Source of the DNA: Streptomyces sp. WM6386
GTDB lineage: Bacteria; Actinomycetota; Actinomycetes; Streptomycetales; Streptomycetaceae
Assembly: GCF_000972385.1 (NCBI RefSeq)
Contig: NZ_JXTE01000027.1
Location: 28,084-92,083 of the forward strand
Length of the DNA stretch: 64,000 bases
Direction of reading: 5' to 3'
How positions within the stretch are numbered: the first letter of the stretch is position 1; each line of letters begins with the position of its first letter. The notes under the pieces were generated by a model. That model did no database searches. It was not told the DNA's origin and saw only the letters and a program-made list of their open reading frames with translations. Both the position numbers and the translations under genes were made by a program. Shown here piece by piece: positions 153-21,337 of this stretch.

Positions 153-692
153 TCAGCGGGTGGCGCGGAGCATCACGGTGAGGACTGGCGAGGCGGCCGA
201 CGGCTGGCTCTGTCCAAGGTCCTCGTACCCCCACGACTTGTACAGCGCGTGGACCTTTCCGCCGCCGGCAGCCGGGTTGACCATGAGTGTGACGTACGGC
301 TCGTCGCGGGTGGCGAGGAGGGCGTCGTGGATGCGGCGGGCGGTGCCGGTCTTCCGCCAGGTCGGTCGGACGCCGATCTCCTTGAGGGCCAGGGCCGGTC
401 GCTCGGTGTACTTCTCCGTCGGCGTCGGGCTGGTGCGCTGCCAGTAGCGGTCGCCGTGCTCGATGGTGTTGCCGTAGGCGTAGCCGACCGGGTGCTCGTC
501 CGCGTACGCGAGGACGGCCGTGAACCCCGGCTCGGTGCCATGCCGGTCCAGGCGCTCGCCGAACGCGGTGACCGCGTAGTTCGGCAGGTGGAGGAGCGGG
601 GCGCGTACGTCGGCGTACACGTCGAGGAGGTCGCCGCGGGCGGTGTCGAGGGTGGTGAAGGTTCGGAGTTCAATGGCGGGTGCCGTGGTCAT
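153..692 (-). CDS. GNAT-family N-acetyltransferase
   Basis: Predicted 179-residue acyl-CoA-dependent acetyltransferase. The fold is suggested by the central stretch ending in EIGVRPTWRKTGTARRIHDAL, which corresponds to the GNAT acetyl-CoA-binding motif (V-x-P-x-x-R-x-x-G-x-A), followed by a late strand VTLMVNP and the C-terminal Y-x-x-W-G-Y element typical of the family. The ATG start at 692 has a GGAGG 8 bases upstream and overlaps the stop of the regulator gene upstream (ATGA), so the two are translationally coupled. A much longer frame runs upstream but is arginine/proline-rich antisense of the regulator and is not coding. The substrate is unknown. Its proximity to a lanthipeptide locus makes a self-resistance or tailoring role possible but unproven. 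Confidence 0.85.
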   Translation of the reverse strand: MTTAPAIELRTFTTLDTARGDLLDVYADVRAPLLHLPNYAVTAFGERLDRHGTEPGFTAVLAYADEHPVGYAYGNTIEHGDRYWQRTSPTPTEKYTERPALALKEIGVRPTWRKTGTARRIHDALLATRDEPYVTLMVNPAAGGGKVHALYKSWGYEDLGQSQPSAASPVLTVMLRATR

Positions 693-1972
693 GCGGCCAT
701 CCTCCAGGTGGCGGTGTGCTCGGTCCAGGTCTGCACGGTGGAGCTGCCCGGCTCGGTGGCGCGCAGTGCGGCCCCGAACTCCTGCAGCATGCGCGTGACC
801 CGGGCGTGCTGGGTGGCGGCTTCGGCGGGGACTTTCATCGCGGTGATTGTGGCGGCGTCGGGGGCGCCCTGGGCGAGCTGGGCGTGGGCGAGCCTGGTCG
901 AGGTGATGGCGCGGGAGCGGATCATGTGGGGTCGGAGGGCGGACAGGCAGCGGTGGGCGTGGTACTCGGCGGTCGAGTAGTCGCCGAGCGCCAAGTTCGC
1001 CGACAGGGCCAGGGAGTCCAGTTCGGCCTGGTCGTAGAAGGCGAGCATCCACACCGGCCGGTAGTCGGCGGGGTCGGCGCGCAGCATGGCGTCCTGTGCC
1101 TGTTCGAAGGCACGGCGGGTGCCGGTGCGGTCCTGTGCTGCGCCGTGGATGGCGCCCTGGCGGGCTAGGCCGAGGGAGGCGAACAGGGGGTCGCGGCGGG
1201 TGAGGTGCAGGTTGCGGGCGACGTCGTTGGCGGCGAATGCGTCGGCGGGACGGCCCATGTGGCGGTACATGGTGCCGGCGTGGCTCCAGATGCGGAACTT
1301 GATCGCCTGGTCGCCGGACATCTCGGCGAGAGCCTGGGCCTCGCGCATGTGGGCCTTGGCGACGTCATAGCGCCGGCCGTCGATGGCGGCCCACATCGCG
1401 GAGGAGCGGAAAGCGGCTGCTGAGGCGTAGAGGTTGCTGCGTACGCGCTGGGTGGCGCTTCCGGCGTTCTGGAGGTTGAGTGCCTCGTCGGCGAGGGCGG
1501 CGGCCCGCTGTTCGATGCCGAGTTGTCCGCCGTGGCGGTGGTCGCTGGCGATGATCTCGGCGAAGCGCTTGTTGAGGCGGTTGACGTCGCTCATGCCGAT
1601 ACGGCGCTGCGATGCGGTGCCGGGTGCGGCTGCTGCTGCGGCAGCCGCCGCGATGCTGCCGACGAGGGTGCGGCGCTTCATGTCGAGGTCCTCCTGCTGC
1701 GGTGGGGCCGGGGTGGACGAAGGTCGGCTCCGTGGCACGAACCCTAAGGCGATGGCGGGTAGTCCGGTGACGTCCTCAAGTGCCGTGCGGGCGGCTGACT
1801 TTGGCCAGGTGACCCGGCCCGCTTTCCATGCCCGGACCGATGAGCCGTCGAGTCCTCCAGGGCGCCCGGTCAACCGTTCAATGGCCCTGTTCACGGCCTC
1901 GGCGAGGCTATTGGAGCTGTAGCCGTGTTCGGTCATCCACGCCTCAAGAACGGTGTTGCGGGTGGTGTCCAT
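689..1972 (-). CDS. XRE-type regulator with TPR-like C-terminal domain
   Basis: 427 residues. The N-terminal 75 residues form a helix-turn-helix-like unit (SSNSLAEAVNRAIERL, then SVRAWKAGR in the place of the recognition helix). A short alanine-rich linker beginning MKRRTLVGSIAAA follows, and then about 300 residues of alpha-helical repeats (for example AALADEALNLQNAG and SHAGTMYRHMGRPADAF), as in Streptomyces XRE regulators with a TPR-like sensor half. Such regulators are frequent next to RiPP loci, so control of the divergent lanthipeptide genes is a reasonable inference. The alanine run after KRRT resembles a signal peptide but is internal to the reading frame. The ATG at 1972 lacks a strong Shine-Dalgarno sequence. 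Confidence 0.8.
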   Translation of the reverse strand: MDTTRNTVLEAWMTEHGYSSNSLAEAVNRAIERLTGRPGGLDGSSVRAWKAGRVTWPKSAARTALEDVTGLPAIALGFVPRSRPSSTPAPPQQEDLDMKRRTLVGSIAAAAAAAAAPGTASQRRIGMSDVNRLNKRFAEIIASDHRHGGQLGIEQRAAALADEALNLQNAGSATQRVRSNLYASAAAFRSSAMWAAIDGRRYDVAKAHMREAQALAEMSGDQAIKFRIWSHAGTMYRHMGRPADAFAANDVARNLHLTRRDPLFASLGLARQGAIHGAAQDRTGTRRAFEQAQDAMLRADPADYRPVWMLAFYDQAELDSLALSANLALGDYSTAEYHAHRCLSALRPHMIRSRAITSTRLAHAQLAQGAPDAATITAMKVPAEAATQHARVTRMLQEFGAALRATEPGSSTVQTWTEHTATWRMAA

Positions 1973-2213: not shown

Positions 2214-2660
2214 ATGACGAGTCTGAGAACAGCAGTTGAGGCCCTGTCCGTCGGCCACCCCACATACAGCCAGACCTTCCCGTGCGAGCCATCCACGGCC
2301 GAGCTCGGCCGCGAACTCGTCCGGGACGTCCTCGGCGTGTGGCACCTCGACGGCCTCGCCGACCGTGCCGTGCTGATCATCACGGAGCTCATCGCGAACG
2401 CCTCCAGGCACACTCCGTGTCCCGAGATCCGCCTCACGGTTGGGCGGCCGAGCGCGACTCGACTGCGTGTCGGGGTCGTGGATCGGGAACCATCGCGTCT
2501 GCCCATACTCAGCCAGGTGGCTGACGACGACGAGTCGGGGCGCGGGCTGCTCCTCGTCGACGCTGTCGCTGACCGCTGGGGCTACGACCTGCACGGCTCG
2601 GGCAGATGCCCTTGGGGCAAAGAGGTCTGGGCGGAACTCCGCACCAAGGGTGGCAAGTGA
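2214..2660 (+). CDS. GHKL ATP-binding protein (anti-sigma/HATPase_c_2-like)
   Basis: 148 residues forming a single HATPase_c_2 domain. The N-box is ELIANASRHT (about residues 63-72), the G1 box lies in GVVDREPS, and the G2 box in ESGRGLLLVDAVADRWGY. There is no histidine phosphoacceptor domain, so it is not a sensor kinase; the family is related to SpoIIAB/RsbW-type serine kinases and is extremely common in Streptomyces. It heads a rightward run: its TGA overlaps the GTG of the next small gene (GTGA), indicating coupled expression. Targets cannot be inferred from the sequence. Confidence 0.88.
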   Translation: MTSLRTAVEALSVGHPTYSQTFPCEPSTAELGRELVRDVLGVWHLDGLADRAVLIITELIANASRHTPCPEIRLTVGRPSATRLRVGVVDREPSRLPILSQVADDDESGRGLLLVDAVADRWGYDLHGSGRCPWGKEVWAELRTKGGK

Positions 2661-3267: not shown

Positions 3268-3447
3268 ATGAAGCGCAGCACCGTAGTTCCCAGCCGCACC
3301 GAAGTACGCCCGCAGATCCCCGGGGCATCGGACGGCTTCGACCTGGACGTCTCCCTCGTCGAGGTCGCCGACCCGGCCGGCCTGGTGAACCTGACCGACG
3401 ACAACTGCGGGTCCACCTGCGGCGCCTGCACCACCAACGTCGCCTGA
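3268..3447 (+). CDS. FxLD-type lanthipeptide precursor (LanA)
   Basis: 59-residue precursor peptide. The leader carries F24-D25-L26-D27, the FxLD motif related to the FNLD box bound by LanB enzymes. The C-terminal core (about residues 43-59) has Asp44, Asp45, Asn46, Cys47, Ser49, Thr50, Cys51, Cys54, Thr55 and Thr56. There are three cysteines and several Ser/Thr, so up to three (methyl)lanthionine rings are possible. Acidic residues next to the first cysteine are candidate substrates of the PIMT-like enzyme encoded downstream. The ATG is preceded by GAGGAG at a spacing of about 7. LanB, LanC and the methyltransferase follow on the same strand. No protease or dedicated exporter is seen in the window. 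Confidence 0.93.
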   Translation: MKRSTVVPSRTEVRPQIPGASDGFDLDVSLVEVADPAGLVNLTDDNCGSTCGACTTNVA

Positions 3448-3471
3448 CCCGGCCCTCAGATCACCCCGGTC

Positions 3472-3503
3472 TGGTGCCGCCGCGTCTCCGCGCGGCGGCA
3501 CCA
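3472..3503 (+). promoter_or_regulatory. perfect 13-bp hairpin between precursor and lanB
   Basis: The arms 3472-3484 and 3491-3503 are perfect 13-base inverted complements around a 6-base loop, and no T-run follows. It sits 24 bases after the precursor stop and 32 bases before the lanB start. In RiPP operons such a structure commonly acts as a leaky terminator or an RNA-stabilising element, giving excess precursor over enzymes. That role is inferred here. Confidence 0.7.
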
Positions 3504-3535
3504 GCCGCCCGTCCTCTCGCTTACGGAGGTCCTTG

Positions 3536-6500
3536 GTGGTTGCTCCTACCGCAGCGTTCAGCGCCGGTTCCACTGCTCTCGTGCGCGCCGTGCCCCGGCC
3601 CTCGCTGCCGTTTCCTCCATGCCCTGACCTCGATGACCGCTCGCCCAGTGGTTCGTCTGCCCGTGTGGCGTGGCTACGCACGGTCTGGGCGGACAAGGAC
3701 GTCGCCGAGGCACTCCAGCACTCCAGCCCGGTCCTGGCCGCGCAGGTAGAGGCGCTTTGCACGGCTGAGCATCCCGCCCTCCGAGATGTGCGGCGCGCGG
3801 CGCTGTCCGTGGCCCGCTACCTGCTGCGTGCCCAGCACCGCGCGACACCCTTCGGCCTGTTCGCCGGCGTGGCCATCGCGGAGTTCGGTCCGCAGGCGCG
3901 GGCCGACTGGGGCGAGGAGCATGTGGCCGTCGGCCGCGCGGGGGCAGAGTGGCTGGCGGCCGTGGTCGAGCGGTTGGAGTCGTGCCCGGACCTCCTCGAT
4001 CGGCTGCCCGTCGTCGTCAACAACACCGTGACGTGCCGGGGAGACCGGCTCGTCGTGCCGTTCCAGCCCGATGTCCAGGACGACCGGATTCGCGCGGTCG
4101 AAGCGTCTCTGGCCCTGACCGGACCGGTGCACGCGGTCCTTGCCGCGGGCCGACTGCCGATCCGGTTCGGCACCCTCGTGGACAAGCTCCAGGCGGAGTT
4201 CCCCGAGGCCGGTCCCGAGAAGGCGCGTCAACTGCTGGCGGAGCTGATCCGGCGGCGGGTACTGATCACGGGCCTGCACGCTCCGAGCACCGAGACCGAT
4301 GCCCTCGGGTATCTGGTGAGCCAGCTCGACGCGATCGACGCTGGAAGTCTCGCCCCGGTCGCGGAGACCGTACGCGAACTCCACGCGGTCCAAGCGGGCC
4401 CGGAGGAGTGCGCCACGCACGGCGGCCGGGACAGCGTCGCGGCGCGGATGCGAGACCTCGTCCCTGGTCTGCGTCGCCACCCCGTCGCGCTCGACCTCCG
4501 CCTGGACGCGCAGATCGTTCTGCCGGAAGTGATCGCCCGAGAGATCGAGCGCGCCGCTCTCATCCTGACCCGCTTGAGCAGCCGTCCGTATGGGACCGCC
4601 GCCTGGAACGAGTACCACCAGCGGTTCTACGAGCGGTACGGCATCGGCACGATGGTGCCGCTCGCGGAGGTGGTCGCGGACAGCGGCACCGGCTATCCCG
4701 ACGGCTACCCAGGCGCTCCGGCCGGCGTACGCAGGCCCCGCGTCTCCGCTCGTGATGACGCCCTTGTACGGCTGGCTCAGGCAGCCGCGCTCGACGGCCG
4801 TGACGAAGTGATCCTCACGGACGAACAGATCGAGGCCCTGGACGTGGGTCCCGACGAGCCTCGGCTGCCGCCGCATTTGGAGATCGGGATGCGGGTGCGG
4901 GCGGCCAGCCTGGAGGAGTTGCAGCACGGGCGATTCCGGCTGGAGGTCGTGAACGTGTCCCGTGGCGCTGGCGTCTCCACGGGCCGATTCCTCAGCGTGC
5001 TGGCCCCCTCCGACCGGGAAGCTGTGGTCGCAGAGCTTGCCGACCTCCCGGCCGCAGACGGCAACACCATGCCCGCGCAGCTGTCTTTCCCGCCCCTGCG
5101 CCCCGAGAGTGCCCACGTCACCCGCTCCCCACAGGTTCTACCAACCGTGATCAGCCTTCAGGAGCACCGCGCCTCGCAGGACACCGTCCTGACCCCCGAG
5201 GACTTGGCTGTGGGATGCGACGGCCGCCGCATGTACCTCGCTGTCCCCGAGCGAGGCCACCGTGTTGAGGCCGTCGGGATGCATGCGTTGAACCTGCGCG
5301 CCCACACCCCGCCGCTGGTGCGGTTCCTCACCGAACTGTCCCGCGCCCAGTGCGCGCAGGTCACCGTCTTCGACTGGGGCGCCGCAGCGGCGATGCCGTT
5401 CCTTCCTCGTCTGCGGTACGGCCGGACCGTGCTGGCCCCGGCACGCTGGCAGCTGGAAGCGTCCGAACTTCCCGGCCATGCCCGCCCTCGGGCCGAGTGG
5501 GACACCACGCTCAGCGACTGGCGTGCCCGGCGAAGGCTGCCGCGCCGCGTCTACCTCGTAGAGGACGACCGGCGCCTCTTCCTCGACCTCGACGAGGCTG
5601 GCCACCGTGCGCTCCTGCGCAGACACCTCGACCATTCGCGCCTGGCCGTGATCGTCGAGGCCCCGGAACCGGAGGCGTACGGCTGGTGCGGCGGGCGAGC
5701 CCACGAGGTCGTGGTGCCCCTCAAAGCAACCGGGCCGTCGGCATGGCCGCCACTGCCAGCCCCCACCCGGGCTCGTGCCCTGTCTGCGACCCAGATGCAG
5801 ACGCCTGCCGCTTTCCCGGTTCTTCTGGCCGCCCTGTACGGCGACCCCCGCCGCCAAGATGTCTTGCTCTCCCGGCACTTGCCCGGCCTACTCCAACAAC
5901 TCGGCAACCCGCCATGGTGGTTCATCCGCTTCCGCGACCCGGACCAACACCTCCGCGTACGCATCGCCCTCCCCGCGCCGGAAGCCTTCGCCGACACGGC
6001 CCGAACGGTGAGCGCCTGGGCCGACGAGCTACGAAGCGTCGGCCTGCTGGCCGACCTGCGCTATCCCACCTCCTACCGCGAGATGGGCCGCTGGGGCTCC
6101 GGCACCGCATGGGAGGCGGCCGAGGAGGTGTTCCGGGCAGACTCGCGCGCCGTCTTGGCCCAACTTGCGCAGCCACAGCGTCCGGGCCAGCGCACGCTGG
6201 TGGCGGCCCACACGGTCGCCATCACCTCCGCCTTCCTCGGCACCACTGAGGCTGCGATGCAGTGGCTGATCGACCATGTCTCGCCGACCGCACCGATGCC
6301 CGTTCCACGCCCGCAGTTCACCGAGGCCGTACGGCTCGCCGACCCGAGCGACGACTGGTCGGCCTTGCGCATGGTCCCGGGCGGGGGCGCCATCGTGTCG
6401 GGATGGGCAGACCGAGATACGGCGATCGCCGCGTACCGGCCGCACCTGCCCGGCCCGGAAGCCCAGGGCATCGCCGTCGACGACGTCCTGACCTCCCTGC

Positions 6501-6619
6501 TGCACGTCCACTTCGTGCGTCACGTCGCCGTGAACTTCCCAGAGGAAGAGGCGTGCCTCTACCTGGCGCGCGCGGCCGCCCTGGCCTGGACCGCCCGGAC
6601 CAAGGGGAGGGCCTCGTGA
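3536..6619 (+). CDS. class I lanthipeptide dehydratase LanB
   Basis: 1027-residue LanB that dehydrates Ser/Thr in the precursor using glutamyl-tRNA. The N-terminal glutamylation (Lant_dehydr_N) domain is recognisable from the family signature R-x-T-P-F-G-L-F-A-G-V near residue 103. The C-terminal third (from about residue 745, ALSATQMQTPAAF onward) is a SpaB_C-type elimination domain containing W-x-x-I-R-F-R-D-P and Y-x-R-E-x-x-R-(W/Y)-G-like elements. Both halves are in one chain, so this is a full-length enzyme. GTG 3536 is preferred because GGAGG lies 6 bases upstream; a TTG three bases earlier is the alternative. Its stop overlaps the GTG of lanC (GTGA). Confidence 0.93.
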   Translation: MVAPTAAFSAGSTALVRAVPRPSLPFPPCPDLDDRSPSGSSARVAWLRTVWADKDVAEALQHSSPVLAAQVEALCTAEHPALRDVRRAALSVARYLLRAQHRATPFGLFAGVAIAEFGPQARADWGEEHVAVGRAGAEWLAAVVERLESCPDLLDRLPVVVNNTVTCRGDRLVVPFQPDVQDDRIRAVEASLALTGPVHAVLAAGRLPIRFGTLVDKLQAEFPEAGPEKARQLLAELIRRRVLITGLHAPSTETDALGYLVSQLDAIDAGSLAPVAETVRELHAVQAGPEECATHGGRDSVAARMRDLVPGLRRHPVALDLRLDAQIVLPEVIAREIERAALILTRLSSRPYGTAAWNEYHQRFYERYGIGTMVPLAEVVADSGTGYPDGYPGAPAGVRRPRVSARDDALVRLAQAAALDGRDEVILTDEQIEALDVGPDEPRLPPHLEIGMRVRAASLEELQHGRFRLEVVNVSRGAGVSTGRFLSVLAPSDREAVVAELADLPAADGNTMPAQLSFPPLRPESAHVTRSPQVLPTVISLQEHRASQDTVLTPEDLAVGCDGRRMYLAVPERGHRVEAVGMHALNLRAHTPPLVRFLTELSRAQCAQVTVFDWGAAAAMPFLPRLRYGRTVLAPARWQLEASELPGHARPRAEWDTTLSDWRARRRLPRRVYLVEDDRRLFLDLDEAGHRALLRRHLDHSRLAVIVEAPEPEAYGWCGGRAHEVVVPLKATGPSAWPPLPAPTRARALSATQMQTPAAFPVLLAALYGDPRRQDVLLSRHLPGLLQQLGNPPWWFIRFRDPDQHLRVRIALPAPEAFADTARTVSAWADELRSVGLLADLRYPTSYREMGRWGSGTAWEAAEEVFRADSRAVLAQLAQPQRPGQRTLVAAHTVAITSAFLGTTEAAMQWLIDHVSPTAPMPVPRPQFTEAVRLADPSDDWSALRMVPGGGAIVSGWADRDTAIAAYRPHLPGPEAQGIAVDDVLTSLLHVHFVRHVAVNFPEEEACLYLARAAALAWTARTKGRAS

Positions 6620-7890
6620 ACGCCTACCCTGCGCTCGGCCTGGTCGACGCCATCGCCGCCCAGCTCGCCGATCCCGAGACCATGCCCCGAGGCCCCAGGA
6701 CGCTGTCCTCGGACCGGCAGCACCTTGCCTACGGGCCACCCGGCATCGCGCTCCTGCACATCGAGCTGGCCGCGAACGACCTCGGCCCGTGGCACCGCGC
6801 CCACGACTGGCTCGCCGCAGCCTCCCGACAGCCGCTCACCAGCGGCCCAGACAGTCACCCCTTCTACGGAGTACCCGCCTTCGCTCATGCCCTGACCTGT
6901 GCGGCCGATCACCTTCCCGACTCCTACCAACGCGCTCTCGACGTGATGGACGCCCAGATCGCAGTCGACGTAGGACGCCGTCTCGACGCCGCACACCGCC
7001 GCATCGACGCCGGACGCCTGCCGCAACTCGCCGAGTTCGACGCCATCCGGGGCCTCACCGGCTACGGCGCCTACCTACTGCGCCGAAACCCCAGCAGCTC
7101 CGCGACGCGCGCCGTTCTCGAATACTGCGTGCGCCTCACCGAACCGATCACCCACCACGGTGAGACCCTGCCAGGCTGGTGGGCGGAGACCGGGCCCTCG
7201 GGCAGCCCGGACGACCGATTCCCCGGCGGGCACGCCAACACCGGTATGGCGCACGGCATCGGCGGCGTGCTCGCACTCCTGGCCCTCGCCGCTCGGAACG
7301 GCTCCGTCACCGACGGGCACCACGCAGCACTGCGCACCATCCTGACCTGGCTGGACCGCTGCAAGGAGCAGACCGACGGCGCACCGGTCTGGCCGTATTG
7401 GGTCACTCAGGCAGAGATGCGAAGCGCGCGTCTCACCCCGTCCGCGCCCCGGCGACCCTCCTGGTGCTACGGCACCGCCGGCCTCGCCCGCGCCCAGCAA
7501 CTTGCCGCGCTCGCCCTCGGCGACACCTGCCGCCAAATCGACGCGGAGAACGCACTCGTGGCCGCCCTCACCGACCCCGAACAGCTGAAGGCTACGACGG
7601 ACAACGGCCTCTGCCACGGCTTCTCCGGCATCGCCCACGCTGCCGCGCGCACGGCCGAAGACGCCCACCCCTCGACCGCGGAGAAACTCCACGCCGCGAT
7701 CCCGGCCCTCCTGGCTGCGGTCATCCCACCGGACACCGACCCCGAACTCACGGCGACGGTGCTGATCCAGGACGAGAAAGGCGGCCCCGGCTTCCTCGAC
7801 GGTGCCGCCGGCATAGCCCTGGCCCTGCTCGCGTCCAGCACCGCCGCACCACCCCGGTCCGCCTGGGACGCCTGCCTCCTCATCGCTTGA
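6616..7890 (+). CDS. lanthionine synthetase C (LanC) cyclase
   Basis: 424-residue zinc enzyme that adds cysteine thiols to dehydroamino acids. The expected metal ligands are all present: Cys284 in W-C-Y-G-T-A-G, and Cys333-His334 in L-C-H-G-F-S-G. The LanC double-barrel glycine motifs (A-H-G-I-G-G near 212 and Y-G-P-P-G near 39) are also visible. The start is the GTG overlapping the lanB stop; a longer open frame upstream is antisense-like arginine-rich sequence inside lanB and is rejected. The next gene begins 21 bases after its stop, so lanB, lanC and the methyltransferase fusion form one operon. Confidence 0.93.
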   Translation: MNAYPALGLVDAIAAQLADPETMPRGPRTLSSDRQHLAYGPPGIALLHIELAANDLGPWHRAHDWLAAASRQPLTSGPDSHPFYGVPAFAHALTCAADHLPDSYQRALDVMDAQIAVDVGRRLDAAHRRIDAGRLPQLAEFDAIRGLTGYGAYLLRRNPSSSATRAVLEYCVRLTEPITHHGETLPGWWAETGPSGSPDDRFPGGHANTGMAHGIGGVLALLALAARNGSVTDGHHAALRTILTWLDRCKEQTDGAPVWPYWVTQAEMRSARLTPSAPRRPSWCYGTAGLARAQQLAALALGDTCRQIDAENALVAALTDPEQLKATTDNGLCHGFSGIAHAAARTAEDAHPSTAEKLHAAIPALLAAVIPPDTDPELTATVLIQDEKGGPGFLDGAAGIALALLASSTAAPPRSAWDACLLIA

Positions 7891-7911
7891 TCCACCGACC
7901 GAAGGACCTCT

Positions 7912-9993
7912 ATGCCTCCCGACCGCTGGCAGCAGCACAACATCACCTTCGTCGACCGCGAGACTGCCCTGCGCACCATCGCCGAACGCCTCGGCCCCAC
8001 CCTGATCGAGGCCGAGGCCGACGGGCAGCTCACCGGCTGGTGGTTCATGAACAAGCAGCCCTGGCCGCTGCGTTACCTCGCCGACAAGCCCTCACCCGCC
8101 ATTGAGTCACTCCTGAGCGATCTCATCGGCGACGGCGTGGCCGTGTCGTGCCTGCCCTGCGTCTACGAACCCGAGACCAACGTATTCGGCGGACCCGAGG
8201 CTACGGACGCAGCCCACGAACTGTTCCACAGCGACTCCCGCCACCTGCTCACCTACCAGCCGAGCCCAATGCACCTGGGACGCAGGGAGACCGCCGTCCT
8301 GCTGGCGAGCGCCATGATGCGCGCTGCTGGACTCGACTGGTTCGAACAGGGCGACGTATGGGCGAAGGTCGCGGCCCTTCGACCGGCCACCGCTCCACAA
8401 CCGCCCGAACAAGCCACCGAACTGGCCCCGGCCATGCAGAAGCTCATGACCACCGACGCCCACAGCCTCTGCCGCCCGGGTGGCCCACTTCACTCGCACG
8501 AGGAATGGGTGACCAGCTTCGAACGGGCCGGCGCCACGCTCGCAGACCTCGCAGGCCGCGGCGCCCTCACCCGCGGCCTGCGAGCCGTCATCGCCCACCA
8601 CGTGATCTTCCACGCCAACCGCGCTGGTCTCCTCCGGGACGACCAGAGCGCCCTGTCCCACATCGCACGAGAGGTAGTCATGGGAACGAGTGACCACACC
8701 AAGTCGCCCACCGAGGGGACGGCCGACGCCGATAGCGTCAGCGCGGTGAACACCGACACGATCACCACCCCCACGGCGGACGCCGAGCGCCTCCGCAACG
8801 CCTTGGTCGACCAGCTCCGCGCGGACGGACACGCCCGCACACCCGCCGTCGAGACTGCGTTGCGGACCGTGCCCCGCCACGTGTTCGTGCCCGACGCGTC
8901 ACTCGAAGACGCCTACGCCAACGCACCGGTACACATCAAGTACGACACCGACGGCACCTCCATCTCCTGCGCCTCCCAGCCGGGCGTCGTCGCCCTCATG
9001 CTGGACCAGCTCGACGCCCAGCCCGGCGAGCGCATCCTCGAACTCGGCGCCGGCACCGGCTACAACGCCGGTCTGCTCGCCCATCTGGTTGGCGAGAGCG
9101 GACACGTGACCACCCTCGACGTCGACGACGACCTCGTGGAAGGCGCCCGCGCGCACCTCGCCGCCGCCGGAATCACCAACGTCGAGGCCGTGACCCGCGA
9201 CGGAGCACTCGGCTACGCCGAAGCAGCGCCGTACGACCGGATCATCGCCACCGTCGGCGCGCACGGCGTACCGCACGCGTGGTTGCAGCAGCTCGCGCAG
9301 GGCGGCCGACTCCTCGTCCCCCAGCGCCTCAAGGGCACGGTGTCCCGCTCCATCGCCTACGAGCAGCGCGACGGCCGATGGGTCTCCCTCGGCAGCGAGA
9401 TGAACACCTTCATGCCTCTTCGGCGAGGCATCGCCGACGACGACCGCCGAGTGATTCCGCTCAGCACGGACGGCGCCGTACGACTCCAGGCCCCCGCCGG
9501 GCTCGGCATCGACGCCGATGCCCTCGCAGGTGTACTCGACCAGCCGCGCGCCGAGGAGTGGACCGGCATGACGGTCCGCGCCATGGAGTCGCCGGAGTGG
9601 ATGGAACTGTTCGTCACCTGCTCCCTCCCCTCTGGTCTGATCCGGATGCTGTTCCCCCAGAGCGCCAAGGGCACGCTGCTCACTGAGGACCCCTACCCCT
9701 CCTCAACTGCGGTCGTTGACAAGGGTGCCGTCACCTACCTCGCCCGGCGCGTGTCCAAGGAGAAGACCCCCGAGGGCGACAGGCTCTGGGAGTTCGGCGT
9801 CATCGGCCATGGCCCCGGCAGCGACGAGCTGGCCGCGAAGGTCGCCGACACCATCCGTACTTGGGACCGCGATTACCGCGACCGTGAAGCCACGTTCGAG
9901 ATCCAGTCCCTCGAAGCCCCCGAGAGCGAGCGGCGCCCTGGTCTCTTCGCCCTCGACACGCCGCTGAACCGCATCGTCGTCGACTGGCGATAA
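7912..9993 (+). CDS. SpaB_C-like domain fused to FxLD-system PIMT-like methyltransferase
   Basis: 693-residue two-domain protein. Residues 1-255 resemble the stand-alone thiopeptide-type bacteriocin biosynthesis (SpaB_C) domain. A low-complexity Thr/Asp/Ala linker runs from 258 to 290. Residues 290-693 resemble protein-L-isoaspartate O-methyltransferase, with the SAM motif I-L-E-L-G-A-G-T-G-Y at 375-384 and a long C-terminal extension. In characterised lanthipeptide PIMT systems the enzyme methylates a core Asp, giving a succinimide that hydrolyses to isoaspartate; the same reaction is inferred here. Because LanB already has its own elimination domain, the extra SpaB_C domain may recruit the leader peptide rather than catalyse elimination. 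AAGGA precedes the ATG. Confidence 0.9.
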   Translation: MPPDRWQQHNITFVDRETALRTIAERLGPTLIEAEADGQLTGWWFMNKQPWPLRYLADKPSPAIESLLSDLIGDGVAVSCLPCVYEPETNVFGGPEATDAAHELFHSDSRHLLTYQPSPMHLGRRETAVLLASAMMRAAGLDWFEQGDVWAKVAALRPATAPQPPEQATELAPAMQKLMTTDAHSLCRPGGPLHSHEEWVTSFERAGATLADLAGRGALTRGLRAVIAHHVIFHANRAGLLRDDQSALSHIAREVVMGTSDHTKSPTEGTADADSVSAVNTDTITTPTADAERLRNALVDQLRADGHARTPAVETALRTVPRHVFVPDASLEDAYANAPVHIKYDTDGTSISCASQPGVVALMLDQLDAQPGERILELGAGTGYNAGLLAHLVGESGHVTTLDVDDDLVEGARAHLAAAGITNVEAVTRDGALGYAEAAPYDRIIATVGAHGVPHAWLQQLAQGGRLLVPQRLKGTVSRSIAYEQRDGRWVSLGSEMNTFMPLRRGIADDDRRVIPLSTDGAVRLQAPAGLGIDADALAGVLDQPRAEEWTGMTVRAMESPEWMELFVTCSLPSGLIRMLFPQSAKGTLLTEDPYPSSTAVVDKGAVTYLARRVSKEKTPEGDRLWEFGVIGHGPGSDELAAKVADTIRTWDRDYRDREATFEIQSLEAPESERRPGLFALDTPLNRIVVDWR

Positions 9994-10009
9994 CACCCCA
10001 CGCGTAGCG

Positions 10010-10046
10010 GACGGTGCCCGTCGGCGTACGGCTGGCGGGCACCGTC
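10010..10046 (+). terminator. hairpin after methyltransferase gene
   Basis: An 11-base stem (10010-10020 with 10036-10046) closes a 15-base loop in the 88-base gap before the last gene of the locus. No U-run follows, so it may be a weak terminator or processing site rather than a full stop. Confidence 0.4.
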
Positions 10047-10081
10047 GCCTCAGCAGTCCTCTCTTTCGACCTGGGGGATCC

Positions 10082-11215
10082 ATGGACCCGCACGGCCCCA
10101 TAGCCCAGCGTTTCCCGCTCGTCGCCCGATTCCGACCGGCCTGCCTGCCCCTGCCTGAACGTGTACGCGCACTTGTCGACCTGGCCGACGCTGCGGTGAA
10201 AGAGACCGACCAGGGGCTCGCATCAGCCGTCTACAACCAGGCCGCGCTCATCGCCTCCGACCTCGACCTCCCCGACCTCGCCCGCGAGATGTGCCACCAG
10301 CACGCCGCCGCCTACCTACACGCCAGCCCCCTACCCGGCATGAGCGCCATCCGCGGACTGGAACCAGTCGTCAACCTCGCTCGCCTCCAGATCCGCGCCG
10401 GCCACCCCGCCGAGGGTCGTCAGCGACTCCTCAACCTGTCCAAGGCCGTCGAGGCGGGCGCAGCCGCCCGGTTCGAGGGCGTCAACGTACCAGCGGACCT
10501 CACTGCGACCGGCGAAGACCTCCAGGAGGTTCGCGCGTGGCTGTGGCGCGTCCTCCTCGCGGACGGCACGCGCACCTTCACCACCGAGGGGCAATGGGCC
10601 GAGGCTCTGGCGCACATCGAAGCCCACCGTGGCATCGGAAAGCGGATGCTCGATGGTCGGCAGGTCGCCGTACTCGCCGCTCTCGTTGCGGGTGACACTG
10701 CGTGGGCCGCTGCCCTCCTTGCCGACACGATGCCCGGCGACGCATGGGAACAAGCCGTCACGACATGCCTGACCGTCCTGTGCCGCCGCTACACCGGGCA
10801 GCCGATCGACGGGCACCTGGCGGACCTGGTGACGGTCTACTCCGGACGGAAGAACGAACCTGGGATGACTGTCTTCGACACCCGGCTCGGGCTCACGGTC
10901 CTCGACGCGATCGGTTCCGCCGAGGCGCTCGCCGCGCACCGCATCGTCGAGGAACTCCACCGCAGGACGACGCACGCCGAAGACGGCTATGCGGCCCGCG
11001 AGGCCCTGGCTCACCCTCTGTTCACCGAGATCGCCACGGACCGGCAAGCGCAGGAATGTCGCGCGCTGGTGCGCGCCTGCGCCCTCGGCGCAGGGACCCT
11101 CCCGAACGAGCTGCGAGAAGACCTGACGGCGGCTCTGCGCACCATCGACCGCGTGATCCAGGAAAGCCTCGCACGTCCCTCAGATCCCGGAGGGACGCAA
11201 CCCCTGCGGCTCTGA
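10082..11215 (+). CDS. helical protein of unknown function at end of lanthipeptide locus
   Basis: 377 residues, Ala/Leu-rich and almost wholly helical by inspection. TPR-like repeats are suggested by segments such as SAVYNQAALIASDLDLPDL and LARLQIRAGHPAEGRQRLL. No catalytic motif, signal peptide or membrane segment is visible. It follows the methyltransferase by 88 bases on the same strand, with GGGGG 6 bases before the ATG. It ends only 7 bases from the convergent relaxase gene, which marks the junction between the biosynthetic locus and the mobilisation module. A regulatory or scaffold role in peptide production is possible, but I cannot assign a function. Confidence 0.7.
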   Translation: MDPHGPIAQRFPLVARFRPACLPLPERVRALVDLADAAVKETDQGLASAVYNQAALIASDLDLPDLAREMCHQHAAAYLHASPLPGMSAIRGLEPVVNLARLQIRAGHPAEGRQRLLNLSKAVEAGAAARFEGVNVPADLTATGEDLQEVRAWLWRVLLADGTRTFTTEGQWAEALAHIEAHRGIGKRMLDGRQVAVLAALVAGDTAWAAALLADTMPGDAWEQAVTTCLTVLCRRYTGQPIDGHLADLVTVYSGRKNEPGMTVFDTRLGLTVLDAIGSAEALAAHRIVEELHRRTTHAEDGYAAREALAHPLFTEIATDRQAQECRALVRACALGAGTLPNELREDLTAALRTIDRVIQESLARPSDPGGTQPLRL

Positions 11216-11222
11216 CGCTGTT

Positions 11223-12929
11223 TTACCGCCGCCGTCCTCGCGGTGCTTGTGGAACAGCTGGGGCAGCCGTTGCCGTCGTCGGCAATGGCGCAGCGGACCG
11301 TTGTGCTGCGCTCCGGGCCTGCGCTGCCAGGGCTCGTGCAGTGGGCGCCGGCCTTGCGCTGAGGCGTTCAATGCGCCAGGCCAGGGTCCTTGCAGGGGAT
11401 CGGGCGTCCTCTAGGGTCCGCTGGTCGGCAGCTTGCTGGAGAAGCTGCTCCGGGTTGTGGCCTGCTGCCTCGGCTTCGGCGAGGGCAGTGGCGAGGGCGT
11501 CGAAGGCCGGATCTTCGGTGATCTGCTCGACGTAGTCGGGCACGGCCTGGTGCAGGTGGTGGATGTGCCTGTCCACCGCCTGCTGGAGCGGTCGGCGCTG
11601 AGCCAGGGCGGCCAGTGGTGCGGCGGCTGCCTGGTCGTAGGCCGCCTGGAGGTGCAGCAGGGTCTGCTGGGCGGCGACAACCTGCTGGTCGTGGTGGCGG
11701 AGCCGGTGCCAGCGAGCGGCGGCGATGACGACGAGGATCGCGGCGTCAAGGAACATCGCCAGCGCGGCACCGTCCCTGGGTACGGGATCACGGAGCATCG
11801 CCCGCACGGCACCACGCAAGGCGCGGGCGTGCTGGTGTTCGGCCCGGATGCGAGAGCGTGTGGCGCGCTCGAACGCCGTTGCCGCCTCTCGGAGCTGAGG
11901 CCGAAGGGTCTGCGGCGCGAGGAGAGGAAGGGCGTCGAGGGCTTCTCCGAAGGCGGCGAGGTGGGCCTGGGAGGCTTCGTCGTCGGTGCGGTCGAGGTGG
12001 CGCGGGATGCGTTCCGTGGAAGCGGTGGCCTGGTGCCACGTGTTCGGCCTGCGCCGACTCGGCTGGTCGCTGGCCTGCGGCTCGGTGTTCTCAAGGCGCT
12101 CGCGGATCTTGGGGAAGGACAGGTCGGGGGCGAGTTCGGAGCCGGAGTACCAGACGGGCCTGTTGTCGGCAGTGGTGGTGTCTTCGGCGGCGACCTTGTA
12201 GCCGCGGATGTCGCCGGAGGGGAAGTGCACGATCTCGACGAGTACGCCGTCGATGTGGCTGAGCAGGTGGACAAACTCCTCCATGTTGGAGGCAGCGGCC
12301 ACAGCGGTGCGCACGGTGGCACGCAGGCGCTCGCGAGCGGGCATGGCCTGGCCGGTACGGCGGGCCTTCTCCTGCTCGGCGCGGGTGCTCCGCTTGGCGG
12401 CGGTGCGGTCGCCGCGGGCGACGCGGAAGAGGCCGTATTCCTTCTCGATGGCGGCGAGTTCGCGGTCGGCGGTGAGGTAGTCGTTCCAGTGGCGTGCGGT
12501 GCGCAGATCCGCGCGGACCTTGGTGGCGGCGATGTGGATGTGGTCGGGGGCGTGGCGGACGGCGACCCAGCGGCAGCCGTCCGGATCACCGGCGGGCGCG
12601 ATGCCCGTGGCCTCAACGACCCGGCGGGCGACGGCGGCCCACTCCTCGTCGCTGAGGTGGCGGTCGCTCTCAGCGGCCCGGATCGAGCAGTGCCACGTGT
12701 GCCGCTCCGGGGCACGGCCGAGCCGCTCGGCCTGCTTGACCTGCAGGTCGAGGTCGGCCACGAGGAGTCTCCTGGTCGCGTCAGGGTCCTCGGCGCGGCC
12801 GGGGTCGGGGGCGAACCCGTCCCAGGAGGCGACCAGGTGCGGGTCAGTGTGGTCCGTGGCCTTCTTCGTGTCGAACAGGTACCGGATCAGGCCCGCGGTC
12901 TCCTTGCCGCCGCTGATCTTCGCTATCAC
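11223..12929 (-). CDS. relaxase/mobilisation nuclease
   Basis: 568 residues. The N-terminal relaxase domain carries the three-histidine metal motif H126-x3-H130-x-H132 (HAPDHIHI) and an early G-x-x-x-x-x-L-I-R-Y-L-F segment typical of MOB_P/MobA-like enzymes that nick oriT and stay covalently attached to the transferred strand. The catalytic tyrosine is probably in the first 30 residues (Tyr17 is a candidate). The C-terminal half is helical and Ala/Arg/Gln-rich. It starts at a GTG overlapping the mobC stop (GTGA). This is the main evidence that the element can be mobilised. Confidence 0.88.
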   Translation of the reverse strand: MIAKISGGKETAGLIRYLFDTKKATDHTDPHLVASWDGFAPDPGRAEDPDATRRLLVADLDLQVKQAERLGRAPERHTWHCSIRAAESDRHLSDEEWAAVARRVVEATGIAPAGDPDGCRWVAVRHAPDHIHIAATKVRADLRTARHWNDYLTADRELAAIEKEYGLFRVARGDRTAAKRSTRAEQEKARRTGQAMPARERLRATVRTAVAAASNMEEFVHLLSHIDGVLVEIVHFPSGDIRGYKVAAEDTTTADNRPVWYSGSELAPDLSFPKIRERLENTEPQASDQPSRRRPNTWHQATASTERIPRHLDRTDDEASQAHLAAFGEALDALPLLAPQTLRPQLREAATAFERATRSRIRAEHQHARALRGAVRAMLRDPVPRDGAALAMFLDAAILVVIAAARWHRLRHHDQQVVAAQQTLLHLQAAYDQAAAAPLAALAQRRPLQQAVDRHIHHLHQAVPDYVEQITEDPAFDALATALAEAEAAGHNPEQLLQQAADQRTLEDARSPARTLAWRIERLSARPAPTARALAAQARSAAQRSAAPLPTTATAAPAVPQAPRGRRR

Positions 12930-13573
12930 CGGGCCGCCCGCTTGCCAACGGCCTGGTTCGCGGCTGCCGCGATGTGGCGGACGGCCGTGCCGACCGCGTC
13001 CAAGGTGCGCTCGGTCTGGGCCAGGACTGCGGTGTCCCCAGGGTGCGAGTGGCCGCCAGAGTTGAGCTTCTTGGTGATCTGGTTGAGGTTGCGGCCGATA
13101 CTGGCGACCTCGTTACGCAGGGCGGTGAGCTCGTCGATGTAGTCGTCGAGTTCGGTGCGCTGGCCGGGCAGGGCGAGGTCGCCGTGGACATGGGCCATGA
13201 CGACGGCTCCGACGTAGTGGGCGCCGGCGATGTTCAGCGAGTGGGCCATGCGCTGGATGTCGGCCTTCTCCTCGACGCTGTAGCGGGCGTCGACACGTTC
13301 CTTGCGTTGGCCGTTCGGATCGGGCTTGCGGCGTCGGGCGACGCGGTGCAGCGCGGCGGCTTCGGCGGCACGCGGCAGCGCGACGGCGGAGGTGTCGACC
13401 GGCTGTTCCTGCTCGGGCACCCCCTGGTGCCCGAGTGCCTCCGCCACCCCCGGGGCGGAGGCATCCCCGCTGCGGCCGTCCCTGGACGGTCCAGCGGGAT
13501 ACCTTGCTGCGCGGTTGAGGCCGGTGGTCATCTCCTGCTTGGGGGTGAGGAGTTCGCTGTGCGGATCGTTCAT
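12926..13573 (-). CDS. MobC-like mobilisation accessory protein
   Basis: 215 residues. A basic, disordered N-terminal half is followed by the MobC signature region, ending with ELTALRNEVASIGRNLNQIT, which matches the conserved G-x-N-L-N-Q-I element of plasmid MobC proteins. These bind oriT and help the relaxase open the DNA. The gene is coupled to the relaxase gene (GTGA overlap) and has GGAG 9 bases before its ATG. Confidence 0.88.
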   Translation of the reverse strand: MNDPHSELLTPKQEMTTGLNRAARYPAGPSRDGRSGDASAPGVAEALGHQGVPEQEQPVDTSAVALPRAAEAAALHRVARRRKPDPNGQRKERVDARYSVEEKADIQRMAHSLNIAGAHYVGAVVMAHVHGDLALPGQRTELDDYIDELTALRNEVASIGRNLNQITKKLNSGGHSHPGDTAVLAQTERTLDAVGTAVRHIAAAANQAVGKRAAR

Positions 13574-14663: not shown

Positions 14664-15944
14664 TCAGGCTGCGGTGCCGGGCAGAGGCTCACCCGGCGGC
14701 TGGACGGGCTCGACCGCGGGCTTCGGCTCTGGGCAGTAGCGGGCCCAGGTGTCGAGGAATTGGTTGCGGGCGAAGCCCTTGGCCTGGGTGCCGTCGGGGA
14801 AGCGGCGGTTGGACGAGCTGATGCCGTAGGGCTTCAGCAGCAGTTGCAGGCCGCGCGGGGTCAGACCGCCCGCGCCGTACTCAGCCCACGGCGCTTCCTT
14901 GTCCGCGTTGAGGTGCTCCAGCAGGCGCCTCGTGCCCAGCACGGCCGGGTCGTTCTCGGCCGCGAAGGCCCGGCGGATGCCGGTCAGGAGGCGGGTGGGC
15001 AGGCCGCCTTCCTCGTCCTGCCCGGCCTCGTAGCCGGTCATGACGCGGCAGGCGGTGCGGGCAAGCGCCGGCCATTCGCCTCCGGCGAGATCGGCGATGA
15101 CCACCAGGGGTTCCCAGGTGTCGGCCGCGCGGTCCTCGACCGGCATGGGCGGCTCCATCTCCAGCGCCTGGGCGTACAGCGGCTGGAGCCAGGCGGAGAG
15201 CCGGTCGCGGATCGCGTGCAGGGCGGGGGTGTCCCTGGTGGTGCGGAAGGCCGCCACCTTCTCGCCCGTCACGCGGCGCCGCATCCGGATGACCACCGAC
15301 CGGTCCATCACCGTGTCCGGCAGACCACCGATCCCGGCGAGTGCCGCCATGGCGAACGTGGGGAACGCGGTGGGCTTGTGCTCGGGCCCGGTCACCCTGA
15401 GCGTGGGCCGGTTGCGCTGGTGCCCGGCGTTGATCAGGCCGCGCACCTCCTCGTTCTTCTCCGCCGCCCTCACGGTGCTGAAGAGGGTGTCGGCCTCGTC
15501 GACCAGCAGAGTCGGCGGGTCCTCGTCGTCGATCGAGCGGAAGATGGCCGCCGGGCTGGCGTTGACCGTGATCAGCGGGTTGCGCACCGTCTCGGTCACG
15601 ATGTCCAGCAGCCGTGACTTGCCGCATCGCTTCTCCGGAGCCACGATCGCCAGACGCGGCGCGTGCTGCCACGCGCGCTGCAGGTGCGTCGCCGCGATCC
15701 ACAGCGTCACGGCGGTGCGTGCCTCCTCGCTCGGCATCACCACATACCGCTTGATCTGCGCCCGGAGGTCGGCCAGGACCTGCGCGCCCTCGGAGGCGGG
15801 CGACGGGGTCGGCGCCTCAACTGGGCTTGCAGGTACATCCGGTGAAGGCAGCGCAGCGCGGTCGACCGGCTGTCCGGGGACGGCGACCGGCGGCCACGAA
15901 GCCGGGTTGGAGTCGGAATAGGGCTCAGCTCCCGCATGTTCCAC
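14664..15944 (-). CDS. DUF3631 ATPase, probable replication protein of element
   Basis: 426 residues. A P-loop-like segment A-P-E-K-R-C-G-K-S-R-L-L is followed by a Walker B-type T-L-L-V-D-E-A-D-T-L-F, then a DUF3631 C-terminal helical region ending in the K-G-F-x-R-x-x-F-x-D-x-W-x-R-Y element. Such proteins occur in actinobacterial integrative elements and phages, often as the helicase-like half of a primase/polymerase. The GTG at 15944 was chosen because GAGGAG lies 7 bases upstream. An in-frame extension to 16256 overlaps the next gene and lacks a ribosome site. Confidence 0.8.
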   Translation of the reverse strand: MEHAGAEPYSDSNPASWPPVAVPGQPVDRAALPSPDVPASPVEAPTPSPASEGAQVLADLRAQIKRYVVMPSEEARTAVTLWIAATHLQRAWQHAPRLAIVAPEKRCGKSRLLDIVTETVRNPLITVNASPAAIFRSIDDEDPPTLLVDEADTLFSTVRAAEKNEEVRGLINAGHQRNRPTLRVTGPEHKPTAFPTFAMAALAGIGGLPDTVMDRSVVIRMRRRVTGEKVAAFRTTRDTPALHAIRDRLSAWLQPLYAQALEMEPPMPVEDRAADTWEPLVVIADLAGGEWPALARTACRVMTGYEAGQDEEGGLPTRLLTGIRRAFAAENDPAVLGTRRLLEHLNADKEAPWAEYGAGGLTPRGLQLLLKPYGISSSNRRFPDGTQAKGFARNQFLDTWARYCPEPKPAVEPVQPPGEPLPGTAA

Positions 15945-16177
15945 AGGGCAGCTCCTCGTCTGGCGGTGGCGGGCTTGCACGCCCTTGCCGCCGGGTTGGT
16001 AATTCACAGGCCGTACGGGGTTGCTGGGGCCTCCGGCGTTGCACCGCCGGGGGCCCGTCCCGTTCTCGCGGGCACCAGGCGACCGCGAGGGAACACGGAC
16101 CGTACGTCCACGCCCGGCAACAGTCCAGCATTTCTGTGTCAGCTCAGCGCAGAACGGTCTGCTATAGCTCCCCGCCC

Positions 16178-16408
16178 TCACGCGGCCAGCCCCAAAAGGG
16201 CCAGCAGGTCGGCGGTCACCACCCGGTAGGCGTTGCCCAGCCGCAGCACCTTGCACGGGTACTGGCCGCGCTTCGCCAGCTCGTACCCCTTGCTCCGCCC
16301 GAGCCCCAGCGCCCGGTTGCCCGTCTCCAGGTCAACAGCGGCGGGAAGCTCCAGCAGCTCCTCTCGGCTCATGCCCTTCACTCGGCCAGCGAGTTCGTTC
16401 TCGCGCAT
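16178..16408 (-). CDS. excisionase-like helix-turn-helix protein
   Basis: 76 residues, MerR/AlpA-like winged HTH. V-D-L-E-T-G-N-R-A-L-G-L-G-R-S-K-G-Y-E-L is the recognition unit, followed by V-L-R-L-G-N-A-Y-R-V-V as the wing. In integrative elements this protein is the directionality factor that assists the integrase in excision. The ATG at 16408 has GGAG 5 bases upstream; an ATG at 16372 and a TTG at 16465 are alternatives. It diverges from the XRE regulator/integrase pair, and the 94-base intergenic region should hold both promoters. Confidence 0.8.
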   Translation of the reverse strand: MRENELAGRVKGMSREELLELPAAVDLETGNRALGLGRSKGYELAKRGQYPCKVLRLGNAYRVVTADLLALLGLAA

Positions 16409-16502: not shown

Positions 16503-17189
16503 ATGACACAACACGGTTTGGATGCTGGAAGGGATGAGGACGACGTCCCGGAGTGGGTGGACCAAGTGATGGCGACAGTGGCCGCCGAGGTCCGCAGACG
16601 AAGGAAGGAGCTGCGCATGAGCGCCCAGGACCTGGCTGACCGCTGCGAGGAGATCGGCCACCCGATCCCGCGCAACGTGATCGCCAACATGGAATCCGGC
16701 CGCCGCGCCAACCTGCCCCTGGTCGACGTCATGGTCCTCGCCGAAGCCCTGCGGACCTACCCGATCTGCCTGCTCTACCCCGTCGGCTACGTCGACCGAG
16801 TCCAGCGCCTCCCCTTGCAGCACTCCGAGCGGACCTGGGATGCCATGCGCTGGTTCACCGGCGACACGGAGGACTTCGGCATGGAAGACGACATGCTCCG
16901 TTCCTTCCGTGCCCACATTCACCACCAGCGCGCCGCCCTGGCCGCTCTGAAGGGCGAGAAGCACGAGCTCTGGAAGGCCGAGACGGCACCCAACCGGGCA
17001 GAACGCGAGGAAGCCGTACTCGCCCAAGCCGACTACGCAGAAAGGGCATTGGAAGCCAAGTACCGGCTCCGCAGTGCCCGCGCCTTCATCCGCGAAGACG
17101 GCGGCACCCCACCGCACCTGCCGCCGGAACTCGCCGACGTCGACCCACCCGAGACCGACCCCAGCACCACCGAGGAGAACGATCTTTGA
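16503..17189 (+). CDS. XRE-family transcriptional regulator of the element
   Basis: 228 residues. The HTH spans about residues 27-85 (EVRRRRKELRMSAQDLADRC, then NVIANMESGRR in the usual position of the recognition helix), and the rest is a charged helical region. It is encoded immediately upstream of and coupled to the integrase (its TGA overlaps the TTG start of int). Control of integrase and, from the opposite strand, excisionase expression is the likely role, as in other actinomycete integrative elements. Confidence 0.87.
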   Translation: MTQHGLDAGRDEDDVPEWVDQVMATVAAEVRRRRKELRMSAQDLADRCEEIGHPIPRNVIANMESGRRANLPLVDVMVLAEALRTYPICLLYPVGYVDRVQRLPLQHSERTWDAMRWFTGDTEDFGMEDDMLRSFRAHIHHQRAALAALKGEKHELWKAETAPNRAEREEAVLAQADYAERALEAKYRLRSARAFIREDGGTPPHLPPELADVDPPETDPSTTEENDL

Positions 17190-21132: not shown

Positions 21133-21337
21133 AAGCGTAACGGGACAGCCCTCAGAGACCCTTAGAGACTGTGCACCGGCAGGCGGTCAGCCCGACAAGC
21201 CCAACTGCTGGCCATGGGCACATCCGCTCACGCATCGCTCACGCACGACCCCGACAACGAAGCAGCGCCTGACCCGACCGAAGCCGACTCAGACGCTGCA
21301 CAGCAGGTCAGAGGGGATACCCCCCACCTGCAACCCG

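Follow-up and report, generated by a model that had tools for sequence, protein, structure and literature searches.

A five-gene operon of the FxLD lanthipeptide system was analysed in Streptomyces sp. WM6386, within a window of 64,000 nucleotides (contig NZ_JXTE01000027.1, positions 28,084 to 92,083). As judged from its genes and terminal repeats, the cluster is cargo of an integrative mobilizable element in a tRNA-Lys gene. The best reading is that of a mobile, intracellular defence peptide carrying (iso)aspartate; we infer its cellular location and function from related systems and hold this reading with moderate confidence. A role in phage defence is considered probable, by interference with phage gene expression. 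It is suggested by the homology of the operon to the lanthiphages, the defence genes beside it, the structure of the mobile element, the intact active sites and the conservation of the peptide core. Of interest here is an aspartimide-type, probably lanthiphage-related operon without a recognised transporter in its conserved block, carried on elements that swap defence systems.

The operon and its predicted product

The genes of the operon encode an FxLD precursor, a LanB dehydratase, a LanC cyclase, a fused methyltransferase and a conserved helical protein (Table 1). A preliminary description of this DNA had reported an FxLD precursor with an F-D-L-D leader motif and three core cysteines, a full-length LanB, a LanC with all zinc ligands and a PIMT-like methyltransferase, with all four genes in one direction, and these assignments were confirmed. 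The four genes lie in 3268-9993 of the locus that it delimited (3268..11215), whereas the last 1.1 kb is a separate fifth gene.

The precursor carries the leader motif F24-D-L-D27 and the core T43-D-D45-N-C47-G-S-T50-C51-G-A-C54-T-T56-N-V-A. The residues T43, C47, G48, C51, G52, A53, C54 and T56 are unchanged in 121/121 aligned precursors, and D45 is retained in 120. This alignment holds the query and the best 120 of 178 precursors found and covers a close group only; the conservon-linked precursors treated below differ more. Position 46 is Asn in 86 and Gly in 35 of the sequences, and position 49 is Ser, Thr or Glu in 82, 31 and 7, respectively. Because the core is nearly invariant among these precursors, the earlier suggestion of a distinct scaffold was rejected. 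By sequence, the cluster is a typical member of a family that is widespread and had been named before. The ratio of the proportions of nonsynonymous and synonymous differences (pN/pS), calculated from 42 ungapped precursors, was 0.187 in the core, 0.486 in the leader and 0.125 in residues 23-40. Special constraint on the core was rejected and purifying selection only is concluded, because synonymous differences are low in the core too. Precursor matches to TIGR04363 were present in 114 of 392 same-genus genomes (111 above cut-off), and TIGR04364 was above cut-off in 163. The 9.8-Mb genome G069 contains mirror-image FxLD matches near both ends (C1 62819-77703 and 9542018-9556902), as would be expected for terminal inverted repeats of a linear chromosome.

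LanB contains the glutamylation and glutamate-elimination domains. Its residues R810, R853 and H991 are the equivalents of NisB R786, R826 and H961, the roles of which are described in PMC4979651 and PMC4341554. Of 71 aligned homologues, 70, 71 and 71 retain these lyase residues, respectively. The zinc-ligand residues of LanC align with those of NisC, and C284, C333 and H334, together with D142 and H213, are invariant in 74/74 aligned LanC proteins.

The methyltransferase consists of a SpaB_C-fold domain (residues ~3-256), a linker, a PIMT domain (~290-509) and a C-terminal extension (~510-693). Its nearest relatives show 94% identity; where they carry a name, it is mostly that of an FxLD-system methyltransferase of Streptomyces. 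The PIMT domain has the fold expected for PIMT. The N-terminal domain matches SpaB_C/thiopep_ocin over residues 6-256 and has the SpaB_C fold. The column of NisB R826 in this domain holds Ala, Thr or Val in 78/78 sequences. The H961 column likewise holds Ala, Thr or Val in 78/78, with an uncertain alignment there and His229/His230 adjacent. Because Arg occurs in 0/78 at the R826 column, the domain was not classed as a lyase; from its sequence it is LanB-lyase-like with key lyase residues lost. It would probably bind the substrate, without glutamate elimination. The alternative that this domain is still active, as an additional glutamyl lyase or as a [4+2] cyclase, and so places a further modification on the product, is improbable given these substitutions. 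Known [4+2] cyclases join two dehydroalanines. Such a reaction is hardly possible on a core with one Ser position that is often another residue (Ser in 82/121, Thr or Glu in 38/121), and aza-[4+2] cyclisation by the extra domain was considered unlikely on the same ground. A PADLOC match of the methyltransferase fold to mad2, the sole match among the seven operon and regulator proteins scanned, was given no weight.

The product of the fifth gene has no Pfam or NCBIfam family match. The gene follows the other four in 77 of 80 loci that were compared with 10-kb flanks; some of these loci end at contig ends, and annotation was limited to common clusters of open reading frames. The complete plasmid pM92 has the same gene row from the GNAT gene to the fifth gene. 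Two chromosomal loci (L101 and L109) contain the fifth gene and a methyltransferase match from residue 104 or 146 onward, with no match to the precursor, LanB or LanC, and may be remnants. Stretches 82-86% identical to methyltransferase residues ~251-693 were also present on the plasmids NC_015952, NZ_CP108804, NZ_CP108851 and NZ_CP109170. For NC_015952 and NZ_CP108804, neither a neighbouring lan gene nor a gene at the methyltransferase-like stretch is listed in the PLSDB table, which omits pseudogenes.

LanB would dehydrate the core Thr residues by glutamylation followed by elimination, and LanC would close the thioether rings. The invariant core residues suggest three methyllanthionines, formed by T43, T50 and T56 with C47, C51 and C54 and presumably paired as T43-C47, T50-C54 and C51-T56; D45 would lie within the first ring. 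The methyltransferase of the operon would then methylate D45, yielding an aspartimide that would hydrolyse mainly to isoaspartate. Formation of isoaspartate or aspartimide at D45 is well supported by homology, because D45 is retained, the PIMT fold is right and the chemistry of OlvSA is published. OlvSA methylates a core Asp after cyclisation, and the ester passes through an aspartimide to 70-80% isoaspartate (PMC13001092). That the window methyltransferase acts likewise on the window peptide is a prediction from these homologues. Two sequence marks of the lanthimiditides are present, namely a TxD-x-C-type core Asp and a PIMT homologue with a C-terminal extension.

The isoaspartate chemistry of the cluster is foreseen in print. 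A conserved Asp together with PIMT had been published by 2020 (PMC7268733), and Lee et al. (PMC10787088) reported 1305 lanthipeptide clusters with such methyltransferases, mostly with TxDGC precursors. The window core has TDDNC in place of TxDGC, and Asn after the core Asp is one variant already named in a published review. The preliminary description had also predicted conversion of a core Asp to isoaspartate, and homology supports this well. Overlooked there were the lyase-like domain fused to the methyltransferase, the fifth gene, the mobile element and the likeness of the layout to that of the lanthiphages.

Table 1. Features of the FxLD cassette and its host element (window positions unless stated otherwise)
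Feature	Position	Strand	Basis and remarks
GNAT-like acetyltransferase	153..692	-	Left cassette edge; start placed by 179-aa sister frames
NsdA-family HTH/TPR-like regulator	689..1972	-	Divergent from operon; NF053720 271.9 bits, cut-off 75
HATPase-fold, anti-sigma-like ATP-binding protein	2214..2660	+	PF13581 29.1 bits, cut-off 27.4
FxLD lanthipeptide precursor	3268..3447	+	59 aa; TIGR04363 48.4 bits, cut-off 30
LanB dehydratase	3533..6619	+	PF04738 (707 bits) and PF14028
LanC cyclase	6616..7890	+	PF05147; Zn ligands C284, C333, H334
FxLD-system methyltransferase	7912..9993	+	TIGR04364 451.4 bits (residues 291-692), cut-off 320
Fifth operon gene	10082..11215	+	Predicted all-helical TPR-like solenoid; conserved
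MobA/VirD2-like relaxase	11223..12929	-	PF03432 35.2 bits, cut-off 24.6
MobC mobilisation protein	12926..13573	-	PF05713 33.5 bits, cut-off 23.2
DUF3631 protein	14664..16256	-	PF12307 233 bits; element role suggested by position only
XRE-type HTH protein beside integrase	16503..17189	+	HTH_31/HTH_3 below cut-off
Tyrosine integrase	17186..18706	+	PF00589 36.3 bits, cut-off 27.1
Right attachment repeat	21337..21382	-	46 bp, 3' end of tRNA-Lys(TTT), tRNA gene 21337-21410
Left attachment repeat	contig C190 19618-19663		Outside window

The host element, its relatives and their defence genes

The element is bounded by a perfect 46-bp repeat of the tRNA-Lys 3' end. The two copies enclose 29.8 kb with the tyrosine integrase, the relaxase, MobC and the FxLD cassette. 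An integrase, a relaxase and direct repeats at a tRNA 3' end are all present in the window element and in seven sister elements, and a homologue of the XRE-type HTH protein occupies the equivalent place in 7/7 sisters. No mating genes were detected among the 19 proteins scanned with Pfam, which cover part of the open reading frames. A SUFU-domain protein (PF05076) is encoded at the right end of the element (20440-21132). Near the right attachment site, a peptidase-like reading frame (18774-19743) contains TAGHV and GDSG motifs by eye and has no Pfam or NCBIfam match. It was rejected as a leader protease and placed outside the cassette, because tblastn gave no match to it in the 80 loci or in any of the seven sisters.

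An FxLD precursor occurs together with this integrase family in 47 genomes. The window-type cassette and the integrase lie within 20 kb of each other in at least eight of these (own included), compared with 0.48 expected by random placement, a value uncorrected for shared ancestry. A ninth genome (G010) has the stand-alone methyltransferase type near an integrase. Repeats of a tRNA end, 44-62 bp long, also flank the seven other window-type elements, which makes 8/8 with the window element. Four of them (G189, G317, G104 and G382) are in tRNA-Lys and have 94-97% identical integrases. The elements of G020, G363 and G290 have another common repeat and integrases 62-63% identical; ARAGORN assigned this repeat to tRNA-Arg(CCT) in G290 and found no such tRNA in G020 and G363. 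The longest repeat of G363 is not the tRNA repeat; it is a 53-bp repeat reaching into the integrase gene and is probably a remnant of a second element.

The seven sisters share a block of at least 14 kb, stretching from the GNAT/NsdA-type regulator at least as far as the relaxase, with 89-94% DNA identity in 21/21 pairs. Their left arms mostly differ, the exceptions being G189 versus G317 and a 2.3-kb piece in G104 and G363. The window relaxase is only 42-44% identical to the relaxases of the sisters.

The left arm of the window element encodes a protein kinase that resembles PD-T4-6, as well as RmrT (PADLOC E 7e-47) and RmrA (3e-152) of the RosmerTA system; PADLOC matches were obtained for three of the six left-arm proteins scanned. 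The left arms of the seven sisters contain 39 listed open reading frames, of which 20 from six elements were scanned. These were chosen by size and partly by defence-like look, so the rate of 14/20 proteins matching PADLOC models at E <= 1e-10 is not unbiased. The matches include Avs3 in G189, OLD/Gabija-like and PDC-M14A in G382, Mokosh, RosmerTA and PDC-M50A in G020, type I restriction and PDC-S19 in G290, and a UvrD-type helicase in G363. The arm of G317 is 94% DNA-identical to the scanned arm of G189 and was counted on that basis. A recognised defence gene or system is present in 5/7 sisters and in 6/8 elements with the window element included. In the control, one of ten chromosomal window proteins was matched, an ABC-type ATPase by its look. 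In this element family, a mobile slot for defence genes would lie next to an unchanging peptide cassette; one unstudied slot gene is common to two elements. This gene encodes a protein of 709-730 aa in the left arms of G104 (L166, 9906-12032 minus) and G363 (L172, 5769-7958 minus). The two elements have different attachment repeats, and a 2.3-kb piece is 96% DNA-identical between them. The protein has no PADLOC match at E <= 1e-10, and its gene is a candidate defence gene of a new kind. A TIR-like protein by eye adjoins Mokosh and RosmerTA in the FxLD-carrying element of G020 (L170, 6267-7685), also with no PADLOC match at E <= 1e-10.

Four cassette-free elements were fetched as controls (G080, G091, G234 and G243; integrases 92-96% identical, no FxLD). 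The tRNA repeat was found in G080 only, and the other three were not delimited. The G080 element, in tRNA-Lys, retains a stump of the NsdA-type regulator (96% identical). At the position of the FxLD genes (L176, 13000-18400) it encodes an ATP-grasp maturase (TIGR04187, 431 bits) and a methyltransferase (TIGR04188, 480 bits); the precursor of this graspetide-type locus was not identified. By coordinates, graspetide maturases also lie within 10 kb of a 57-58% identical integrase in G141 and G244, possibly by chance. The ATP-grasp maturase is common (289/392 genomes), and G080 is the one case inspected. The FxLD cassette in seven further elements beside a variable slot, together with the maturase and PIMT-like pair of G080, raises the tentative and still doubtful idea that methyltransferase-made aspartimide or isoaspartate peptides are interchangeable anti-phage cargo of tRNA-integrating mobilizable elements, with the modified Asp as the shared active feature. 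If true, it would be the first common biological role for aspartimide peptides.

Probable kinship with lanthiphages and the case for phage defence

The primary study of lanthiphages is reportedly that of Shomar et al. (2024/2026). Lanthiphages are class I LanBC clusters of Actinomycetota located in defence islands (PMC12715929). Lanthipeptide clusters were found near defence systems at a frequency of 8.8% and protected Streptomyces from phage (PMC12360287, section 2.1.8). The lanthiphages were found active only inside the cell, where they inhibit phage transcription, late genes above all, and phages escaped via mutants of a phage GNAT (PMC12360287). The cassette has a GNAT-like gene of its own, which may be linked to this escape locus. 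The cluster of S. coelicolor (SCO6927-SCO6938) is beside the cvn8 conservon, in the order cvn8, LanA SCO6932 (43 aa)/SCO6931 (59 aa), LanB SCO6930 and LanC SCO6929 (PMC8510531, PMC3091789, PMC13343842, PMC12175524).

The conservon layout was sought in ten genomes, mostly chosen for tandem precursors. A DUF742 conservon gene lies ~5.3 kb from tandem precursors in G379, G160, G256, G195 and G281. The loci of G281, G379 and G013 have the gene order of the window, with two or three tandem precursors in place of one, then LanB and LanC, and last the fused methyltransferase and the fifth gene. In G281 and G379 the precursor end of the operon faces the conservon, which matches the published S. coelicolor arrangement. 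Identity between the window and these three loci is 45-46% for LanB, 51-52% for LanC, 46-48% and 60-63% for the N-terminal and PIMT domains of the methyltransferase, respectively, and 40-42% for the fifth gene. Conservon-type precursors of 59 and 43 aa exist. An S. coelicolor FxLD precursor in UniRef (P0258) is 84% identical to the G379 precursor and 51% identical to the window precursor over 45 residues, with NLTDD-CGSTC in common. Because the conservon-linked relatives share five genes in order and the S. coelicolor precursor is related, the window operon is, on sequence grounds, probably a divergent relation of that of the lanthiphages. As the five genes in common suggest, the lanthiphages and the FxLD aspartimide lanthipeptides may form a single type of operon.

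The genes around the operon bear on the site of action. The conserved block, defined by the clusters of open reading frames found in more than eight of the 80 loci, contains no recognised gene for a transporter, a leader protease or immunity. These clusters represent the operon, its regulators and mobile-element genes; one of them, of 313 aa and present in 13 loci, looks by eye like a membrane protein and lies among the element genes. Because no transporter or leader protease was found there, the mature product is probably active within the cell. A secreted antibacterial lantibiotic of the usual kind, helping the element's host to compete, would agree with the intact LanB and LanC, with the antibacterial activity of many lanthipeptides and with the travel of nisin genes on an integrative and conjugative element (ICE; PMC12715929). 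It is nevertheless an unlikely function, given the lack of recognised export, protease and immunity genes (within 10-kb flanks, some cut by contig ends) and a core that barely varies.

The regulators flanking the operon allow another interpretation. The GNAT-like gene (Acetyltransf_1 exactly at the Pfam cut-off when scanned as 153-749) has a tblastn match in 41/80 loci, and plasmid pM92 has an annotated GNAT at the same position. The NsdA-family regulator has matches in 43/80 loci, 41 of them above 80% identity. The HATPase has matches in 51, of which 12 are below 46% identity and are probably other proteins. A developmental or signalling peptide of Streptomyces under the NsdA-family regulator and the anti-sigma-like ATPase is suggested by the position of both genes beside the operon, by the conserved core and by the conservons that adjoin the sister-group loci. 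We give this reading a small chance, as the system is patchy (114/392 genomes by precursor matches) and carried on mobile elements and plasmids, and a close regulator homologue was found in only 41/80 loci, with some loci truncated at contig ends.

Several points weigh against intracellular phage defence by a lanthiphage relative on a mobile element. A search of 21 genomes (own included) for the sequences flanking the two attachment copies revealed no empty tRNA-Lys site, as the two flanks were not found next to each other in any relative; the element boundary rests on the repeats and synteny. The core pN/pS is not below that of residues 23-40. In G013 the conservon is located beyond the opposite end of the operon, at a distance of ~12 kb from the precursors. 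P0258 is tied to SCO6931/SCO6932 by species name and layout only, and the full five-gene order was established in the conservon-linked relatives, the S. coelicolor layout covering the precursors, LanB and LanC. Likeness to lanthiphages was judged by secondary descriptions rather than by the original family definition. Two of the eight elements (G104 and G363) have no clear known defence system, and the left-arm genes for scanning were picked by size and eye. Mobilizable elements often carry defence genes, so the defence genes nearby could be a trait of the element rather than of the peptide.

No paper tying aspartimide modification to phage defence was found in the literature within reach, which excluded subscription journals and the primary lanthiphage paper. 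In a 2026 review of aspartimide peptides, connecting them with biological function is called the bigger challenge, and its main text has no word that begins with "phage" (PMC13001092). Should lanthiphages and the FxLD aspartimide peptides prove to be a single type of operon, the question of function would come within reach of one point mutation in an established type of phage assay.

Comparison with known systems

The window operon is a member of the FxLD system (NCBIfam TIGR04363/TIGR04364, gene name fxlM). Its precursor and methyltransferase are above both cut-offs, and close homologues of its genes in other genomes bear the FxLD name. No difference from this system was seen; the fifth gene is outside the Pfam and NCBIfam models.

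The OlvA/OlvSA lanthimiditide of S. olivaceus NRRL B-3009, reportedly described first by Acedo in 2019, shares with the window the expected core Asp inside a methyllanthionine ring. Common to both are also LanB, LanC and a PIMT homologue with a C-terminal extension (PMC13001092, PMC10787088, PMC7268733). The window precursor differs in having Asn after the Asp (Gly in 35/121 relatives). The window methyltransferase is fused to a SpaB_C-like domain; OlvSA is known here from literature descriptions only.

The lanthiphage clusters share class I LanBC, a probably related precursor and the defence-gene setting (PMC12360287, PMC13343842, PMC8510531, PMC3091789, PMC12175524, PMC12715929), whereas the window has a single precursor, an NsdA-family regulator in place of the conservon, a mobilizable carrier and proteins 40-63% identical to the conservon-linked type. 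The nisin-type lanthipeptides borne on ICEs likewise have lanthipeptide genes as cargo of an integrating element (PMC12715929). They differ from the window cassette, in which the conserved block has no recognised transporter, immunity gene or leader protease and the product is predicted to be intracellular.

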